A DNA stretch of 43,132 nucleotides from Thermoplasma sp. (lineage in GTDB: Archaea > Thermoplasmatota > Thermoplasmata > Thermoplasmatales > Thermoplasmataceae), in assembly GCF_023256435.1 (NCBI RefSeq), contig NZ_JAGDXM010000019.1:1-43132 (forward strand). The letters run 5' to 3'. This document shows, piece by piece, positions 12,305-13,802 of the stretch. The notes beneath the pieces were generated by a model. The model had not been told where the DNA came from, made no database searches, and saw only the letters and a list, made by a program, of their open reading frames with translations. Each line of letters begins with the position of its first letter. Within the stretch, counting starts at the first letter, position 1. The position numbers and the translations under genes are program-made.

Positions 12305-12649
12305 TCATTTCTCCATCCTAAATTCTTCTATGACTGCACCAGGCCCAAATTTTACATAGAAACTCAGGGAATTCTTTTCGTTATTTATAACGACATGTCT
12401 TCCGTCTCGATAATTTCCATTTATTCTTAGTTCATCTATTTTATTAATTGGAGTATTCTGCAATGCCTTCTCGATCATGTTTCTGAACTCGGCAGCACAT
12501 ATGTCGCAGCAGAAGAACAGATCCTCACCGAACATCTCCTCGTGATGATCGCCCCATGTTGCTCCGCAAAGCGCACAACCGGTGGCCTTGCTACCGGCCC
12601 TGACTCCGTTGACGATTATATTCAAGTCATTCACCCCAAGCGGCTTCAA
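12305..12649 (-). CDS. TA0938-like Cys-rich putative zinc protein (114 aa)
   Basis: CALCGATWGDHHEEMFGEDLFFCCDICAAEF metal-binding motif; recalled resemblance to T. acidophilum TA0938; start overlaps the 3' end of the upstream gene. Confidence 0.75.
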   Translation of the reverse strand: MKPLGVNDLNIIVNGVRAGSKATGCALCGATWGDHHEEMFGEDLFFCCDICAAEFRNMIEKALQNTPINKIDELRINGNYRDGRHVVINNEKNSLSFYVKFGPGAVIEEFRMEK

Positions 12650-13517
12650 GCATTCTTGATCTTCTCAGCCTCGCGTTTAAATATAAATAAAAAGCGTCCA
12701 TCGAACGGATCATTATTGATCTTGTTGTAAGATCGTCCATGGTCTCCGATTCCACTATCTTCAAAGCTTTTCCAGCATGATCCACGTCCGCTTTATAACC
12801 TTCCATCAGAAAATCCCGTACCTCCTGTGGATATTCTGAACTATTGAGTATGCCTGGATCGAAGTAATGCATCTTGGCACCATCATCCACAAGCGTCCTG
12901 TCGGCAACAAGTTCAAGCACATGCATTGCACCCATAGTATCCACCCAGGAATAGTGACTGGATATACTATACCAAACCTCAATTGCCTTCGAGGTCTCCG
13001 GTAACGGTGTGTATTCCATTATACGTTTTCTTGTCATGCCAAGAGCCTCACCCATCCTGATGAGCAGATCGAGATGCGATGGTCTTCCGTTGAAGCCTAT
13101 GTATTCCGTCGCCACGTTCTCAATCTCATAATTGAATGCTTCTTCTGAAGTTGTGGAATGTATAACGGATGAAAGAGTCCTGATCCAGTTTCTGAGGAAA
13201 AATCTGTGTTCAATAACGTATCCTAGCAATACTGGAATGCTTGGCCTCTGCATTGCCTGTATGAATGGATGCGGATCTGTGTAGAATTTTCTAATGAATG
13301 CGAGTCTCGCCCATTTCGCCAAGGATACTTGCGGAGAGAATACCATATCGAAGGCTTCTTCCAAATCAGAATAATCCATATACTTACCTCCCAGCTCGGC
13401 ATAGATCCATGAGGTGTGGTTTGCATCACCCCTGATTGACATATTTCCGAAATGAACGCCGAGATCATGAAGCGTCTGCACTTTACCCTCACATACTGGA
13501 CAGATCATAGTGTACAT
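12627..13517 (-). CDS. N-terminal zinc finger plus TenA/PqqC (heme-oxygenase-like) helical domain protein, function unknown
   Basis: MICPVCEGKVQTLHDLGVHFGN (C2H2-like); EHRFFLRNW…YEIENVATEYIGFNGRPSHLDLLIRMGEALGM and DVDHAGKALKIVES resemble helices of the TenA/PqqC/HDO superfamily. Confidence 0.55.
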   Translation of the reverse strand: MYTMICPVCEGKVQTLHDLGVHFGNMSIRGDANHTSWIYAELGGKYMDYSDLEEAFDMVFSPQVSLAKWARLAFIRKFYTDPHPFIQAMQRPSIPVLLGYVIEHRFFLRNWIRTLSSVIHSTTSEEAFNYEIENVATEYIGFNGRPSHLDLLIRMGEALGMTRKRIMEYTPLPETSKAIEVWYSISSHYSWVDTMGAMHVLELVADRTLVDDGAKMHYFDPGILNSSEYPQEVRDFLMEGYKADVDHAGKALKIVESETMDDLTTRSIMIRSMDAFYLYLNARLRRSRMLEAAWGE

Positions 13518-13701
13518 ATACTTAAAGTCTATTTAAATTTAAATAGATTTAGAATGATATATATTTTAGAATAGTGATTGCTATAATCATGCATTGAACA
13601 AATTGAGTGCGAGAACACTGCACCGATTGACCTTGAAAAATGACAAAATTTATGCCCTTCATTAAGATCTGCTTCCGCTGATCCTGAGGGTGAATGTATC
13701 T

Positions 13702-13786
13702 GCAGAGGTTGCCGAGTCAGGTCAAAGGCGGCAGACTCAAGATCTGCCTCCGTAGGGATTCGCCGGTTCGAATCCGGCCCTCTGCA
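13702..13786 (+). tRNA. tRNA-Leu(CAA)
   Basis: GCAGAGGTTGCCGAGTCAGGTC…GCAGA CTCAAGA TCTGC…GCCGGTTCGAATCCGGCCCTCTGCA; acceptor stem GCAGAGG/CCTCTGC; class II variable arm; no intron. Confidence 0.95.
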
Positions 13787-13802
13787 TCTTGGAAGTGAGG
13801 AA

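Follow-up and report, generated by a model that had tools for sequence, protein, structure and literature searches.

Two overlapping genes on the minus strand of the window (the whole 43,132 nt stretch of DNA that was analyzed) may form a module in which an HDO-type oxidase or oxygenase is accompanied by a dedicated metal-binding partner, the latter most likely loading or stabilizing the metal of the enzyme. We rate the chances of this reading as about even. Judged by their linkage and by the residues they lose, the two genes look like one working unit, tight and repeatedly co-lost.

Gene pair and overlap

Gene 1 (12627..13517, minus strand) encodes a protein of 296 aa with an ATG start, combining a zinc finger with a heme-oxygenase-like domain, and is referred to here as the putative enzyme. 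Its N-terminal C2H2 finger (13416..13502, minus strand; C6, C9, H22 and H34) matches PF16293 (zf-C2H2_9) at E=7e-8, with 32.7 bits against a cut-off of 29, and belongs to the CPVC...H...H start that had been pointed out in the earlier note on this DNA. Residues 69-285 (12663..13313, minus strand) make up the TENA_THI-4/heme-oxygenase-like domain, recognized by Pfam, AlphaFold2 and Foldseek; the best Pfam family is PF03070 (TENA_THI-4, E=7.5e-45), and PF14518 (Haem_oxygenas_2) matches at E=5e-11. The closest solved structure by sequence is 4LQX (E=1.2e-89). Gene 2 (12305..12634, minus strand) encodes a Ta0938 family protein of about 109 aa if read from GTG, or 114 aa if read from the TTG at 12649. 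It matches PF11494 (Ta0938) at E=1.2e-37 (128.6 bits, cut-off 27), and its closest solved structure is 2FQH (E=1.6e-45), in agreement with the likeness to TA0938 proposed before. Immediately upstream of both genes, the opposite strand carries a tRNA-Leu (CAA) gene (window positions 13701-13788).

Both reading frames are present on the minus strand and overlap as previously described, but the reported 23 bp is probably 8 bp (12627..12634, minus strand; GTGAATGA), with the start of gene 2 lying within the stop of gene 1. This shorter overlap is most likely because the first residue of TA0938 aligns to the GTG at 12634, and its second to the next codon, rather than to the TTG at 12649, and because the same GTGAxTGA junction (GTGAGTGA) with the upstream gene is found in a T. 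acidophilum-like homologue (G099), where Ta0938 reads as the 2FQH sequence. Across 60 related loci, 1-73 nt (median 7) separate the enzyme stop codon from the first Ta0938 cysteine codon downstream of it, so that a gene 2 start within the upstream gene is usual, and the pair is probably translationally coupled.

Linkage and mutual decay of the two genes

Among 390 genomes of the window's phylum, Ta0938 was found above the Pfam cut-off in 27, and 26 of these also have the enzyme gene, always immediately adjacent and on the same strand (Fisher p ~2e-34 for co-occurrence, a value to be read with the caution that related genomes are not independent). The sole exception (G328) lacks the enzyme and carries a decayed Ta0938 without the first CxxC. 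A contig scan with a single protein as query gave no loci, while an alignment-led scan yielded 62 further loci from Thermoplasmatota, Sulfolobales, Acidilobaceae, Nitrososphaerota and one Heimdallarchaeota bin, with Ta0938 directly downstream in 60; the other two are L119, which ends at a contig edge, and L115. In the Thermoproteota group (280 genomes) each Ta0938 match above 100 bits adjoins an enzyme match, except for the second copy in G673, and the enzyme reading of G560 is cut short. Neither gene is present in G054 and G096, which belong to the same genus as the window. Co-occurrence in other genomes, which had been set beforehand as a test of the pair, is thus nearly exceptionless. Both genes appear in a 2007 list of 30 proteins common to Thermoplasmata and Sulfolobus (PMC1852104), and beyond this list no paper on the pair was found in a literature search that left most subscription journals outside. 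Among L061-L122 and the window pair, the Thermoplasma genes lie near those of Sulfolobales in both gene trees, and transfer of the pair as a unit between Sulfolobales and Thermoplasma was considered, but was not upheld, as grouping with the other Thermoplasmata was not rejected (AU test, p=0.16).

Putative ligands were surveyed at 13 candidate positions in 86 aligned enzyme sequences. In 80 of these the full putative ligand set is present and the 13 positions are the same, save for Gly/Thr at position 240 and one Phe at 279. Of the 80, 79 are copies linked to Ta0938, with one genome entering twice, and the last is 4LQX, included irrespective of its neighborhood. All six copies without a Ta0938 neighbor have changed several putative ligands, with E138 and/or H148 altered in each. 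One of them, L115, carries E138R, H148Y, G240H and H247R; the other five are paralogues with several ligands changed, and are adjoined or overlapped by a different protein of ~90 aa in place of Ta0938. The unpaired copies have two independent origins in the tree, L115 being placed beside L048 (100/82) and the paralogues forming a single clade (100/100). At the paralogue locus (L172-L176) the ligand-poor copy sits in a conserved neighborhood of other genes. The reciprocal situation, Ta0938 without the enzyme, is seen in G328, where the first CxxC is gone, and in the second copy of G673, where the first Cys is gone.

Across archaea, loss of either the enzyme or Ta0938 thus appears to go together with decay of the one that remains. 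We regard this evidence as strong but not conclusive, since the unpaired copies are few and the genomes are related. The zinc finger behaves differently: all four of its residues are kept in the six copies that lack Ta0938, and three family f5 enzymes lack the finger but have the ligands and Ta0938, so that the presence of Ta0938 goes with the metal site rather than with the finger. At a further locus (L060, in G219) what looks like an internal deletion has linked the enzyme gene to a stretch similar to the C-terminus of Ta0938; the gene may be decaying, or this may be an assembly effect. The third small gene, described next, is intact upstream.

A survey of the neighborhood for a substrate pathway revealed no further gene conserved across lineages. 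Convergent gcvT/pdxT/glyA-like neighbors at about ten Thermoplasmata loci were considered and look like lineage inheritance, and a gene of the cation-efflux family lies directly upstream of the enzyme at four Thermoplasmata loci (L111, L112, L114 and L117). The third small gene, encoding a ~75 aa protein (LLxGMGNCYxAC...EYxxLRxRLPxEFP) with no Pfam family, is found directly upstream of the enzyme in G568 and throughout one well-supported clade of 13 rows (97/87); L075 is too near a contig start to be judged. This protein may conceivably be the substrate in a peptide modification, although against such a reading G219 is the sole genome to have it among 380 from the window's phylum, there too next to the enzyme, and it is absent from the window locus and the window genome.

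Fold and putative metal site of the enzyme

The enzyme was modeled by AlphaFold2 with 41 aligned sequences (pLDDT 95, pTM 0.93), and the model has the seven-helix heme-oxygenase fold of HDOs. A Foldseek search returned 4LQX at the top (TM-score 0.94), then metal-loaded CtCADD (8va9; TM 0.82 by target), followed by other CADD chains, PqqC, UndA, TenA, BesC and HrmI. At the sequence level the family profile reaches CADD at 4.5e-7, along with pABA synthases. The resemblance to TenA, PqqC and HDOs suggested in the earlier note is correct at the level of the fold, and the heme-oxygenase fold, set as a test there, is borne out by the predicted structure, with metal-loaded CADD as its nearest match after 4LQX.

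In alignments with CADD, the ligands E81, H88, E142, D178 and H181 correspond to E138, H148, E202, D244 and H247 of the window enzyme, and CADD H174, the first histidine of the HxxxDxxH motif, aligns to G240, which is Thr in family f5. The residues lie in three stretches of the minus strand: E138 ... H148 at 13074..13106, H199-x-x-E202 at 12912..12923, and G240-x3-D244-x2-H247 at 12777..12800. Five of the six CADD dimetal ligands are kept, giving the set E-H-E-G-D-H, and of the 80 otherwise intact sequences 77 have Gly at the fourth motif position and three have Thr. The segments YEIEN, RPSHLDLL and DVDH, previously singled out, are indeed conserved and hold the putative ligands E131, E138, H148, D244 and H247. 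In the literature the HDO motif reads E-H-E-H-(D/E)-H (PMC11363339), from which the window sequence (E138-H148-E202-G240-D244-H247) departs at the fourth ligand, and for this reason the enzyme is termed HDO-like rather than a canonical dimetal HDO. With the expected site 1 histidine missing, a regular dimetal site cannot be taken for granted.

The alignment offers further active-site candidates in the invariant residues E103, H104, E131, N134, H199 and R286. E103-H104 (13206..13211, minus strand), in helix 94-121, is invariant in all 72 aligned sequences and may supply extra metal ligands. H199 was considered as a replacement for the missing histidine, but in 9pj4, a 4-aminobenzoate synthase, a His occupies this position and the third helix has its two histidines as well, so that H199 may instead be a second-sphere residue.

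Role of Ta0938 and relation to known systems

Within the Ta0938 family (23 aligned rows) C20, C23, C42, C43, C46, W27, G28, F41 and D67 are invariant, and the cysteines form a TRASH/YHS-like CxxC-x18-CCxxC site (12497..12577, minus strand). PF24273 (TRASH_HVO_1752_C) matches 20 of the 23 members at a permissive E<=1 (best E 3.5e-5), and YHS matches five of the 23. The window protein itself reaches E=0.03 against PF24273, with ~15 bits compared to a cut-off of 27, and falls outside TRASH/YHS on that score. Its model (pLDDT 91) consists of a hairpin, a helix and a beta sheet, and a Foldseek search of the PDB gave no fold relative among the matches listed, 2fqh not being among them. The metal-trafficking TRASH/YHS domains share a CxxC ... 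FCCxxC pattern with Ta0938, which differs from them in the window protein's score below the cut-off, its extra beta domain and the lack of a fold match; given this weak likeness and the absent fold relative, metal trafficking by Ta0938 is a lead and not a demonstration. At one locus (L088:10797-12365) Ta0938 and an alpha/beta hydrolase (PF07859) form a fusion, with a proline-rich linker between them. As a clue to function this was set aside, being a single case in one MAG.

According to the preferred reading, the helical domain of the enzyme would bind iron (or Fe/Mn) through E138, H148, E202, D244 and H247, with H104, H199 or E103 perhaps standing in for the absent first histidine in the third core helix, or with a single-metal site. 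The loaded enzyme would then activate O2 on a small molecule or protein. The CxxC/CCxxC site of Ta0938 would hold a metal, and the protein would most likely load the labile metal site of the enzyme or keep it stable. The fold, the conserved ligands, the close linkage and the mutual decay have computational backing; metal binding, O2 chemistry, physical contact and the direction of metal transfer are all steps that we infer. The likeness of Ta0938 to TRASH/YHS motifs and the cation-efflux gene at four loci also speak for this reading. The earlier idea of an oxidase or oxygenase with a metal partner fits the conservation of the ligands and the mutual decay, while its activity, its metal and the role of its partner are putative. 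A more specific version, to be taken as tentative and on balance doubtful, is that of a new archaeal HDO subfamily, E-H-E-G-D-H, needing Ta0938 as a metallochaperone (with a third Cys-bearing protein in one clade) whose chemistry would rest on a single metal at site 2, or else on a dimetal center that has been re-wired.

HDO cofactors are labile and the third core helix is flexible (PMC13108848), and one HDO has a redox partner (PMC13185094), so that a metal loader and an electron donor are both plausible roles for Ta0938. As a rubredoxin-like donor holding Fe via CxxC/CxxC it would re-reduce the metal center, as MboB does for MboA. In its favor, an Fe(Cys)4 center could sit in CxxC-x18-CCxxC; an outside reductant is required by SznF, UndA and BesC for multiple turnovers (PMC11363339), and MboAB is possibly the first dedicated pair of HDO and redox partner (PMC13185094). 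Nevertheless, Ta0938 resembles TRASH/YHS domains, a rubredoxin model matches just once (E=0.19), and no reductase gene is found among the conserved neighbors, making this reading quite unlikely. It is somewhat improbable that Ta0938, its zinc being structural, serves as a subunit with a structural or substrate-handling role, capping the site or presenting the substrate without transferring metal: coupling and co-decay would appear identical, and Ta0938 has a conserved C-terminal beta domain beyond the metal hairpin, but this reading lacks positive evidence and requires a heterocomplex.

The remaining alternatives concern the enzyme itself. It could do without metal, as a TenA (thiaminase II) or PqqC-like protein whose Glu and His residues are merely acid-base or structural, given that PF03070 is the best Pfam family and PqqC works without metal (PMC11363339). 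This is very unlikely, as no Cys outside the zinc finger is invariant or nearly so in 41 sequences, where thiaminase II would have a catalytic one, and the invariant CADD-like carboxylate/His cluster disappears as a set from unpaired copies. We consider a role as a self-sacrificing 4-aminobenzoate synthase of the CADD type, serving pterin/folate synthesis, extremely unlikely. CADD and NePabS-type synthases are its nearest solved relatives after 4LQX, but alignment inspection found no conserved Tyr/Lys counterpart to CADD Tyr27 and Lys152 (PMC11965152), the Tyr27 stretch lying just outside the HMMER alignment, and one metal histidine is missing.

Of the characterized proteins, CADD and NePabS are the nearest in both fold and sequence, with five of six metal ligands aligning; the window enzyme differs in having Gly/Thr for the first His, no conserved Tyr/Lys, and a tightly linked Ta0938. 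FlcD (E-H-E-H-V-R), in which one iron is bound by E181, H191 and H274 (PMC11363339), resembles it in having non-canonical ligands and the same 10-residue Glu-His spacing within the first core helix (E181/H191 and E138/H148), but in FlcD the site-1 His is present and the final two ligands are gone, the reverse of the window enzyme. The pair is reminiscent of MboA-MboB, an HDO with a dedicated partner protein (PMC13185094), except that MboB is a flavin/Fe2S2 reductase, whereas Ta0938 is a small Cys-rich protein without such a cofactor domain. A 2026 review covers the HDO sequence landscape in bacterial species and makes no mention of archaea (PMC13108848). Orthologues of both proteins have been solved: 4LQX (SSO2700, a TENA/THI-4 domain protein of S. 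solfataricus) has the same zinc finger and all putative ligands and is an uncharacterized structural-genomics entry, with no paper discussing SSO2700 or 4LQX found in our literature search, and 2FQH (TA0938 of T. acidophilum), the orthologue of gene 2, was deposited as a hypothetical protein with no partner named.

HDOs perform unusual oxidations, and the joint decay of ligands and cysteines in this pair makes the question of how cells fill labile HDO metal sites testable within one operon. The E-H-E-G-D-H set, as the reverse of FlcD, would test the purpose of each metal position, and two structural-genomics orphans, 4LQX and 2FQH, would gain a joint hypothesis.
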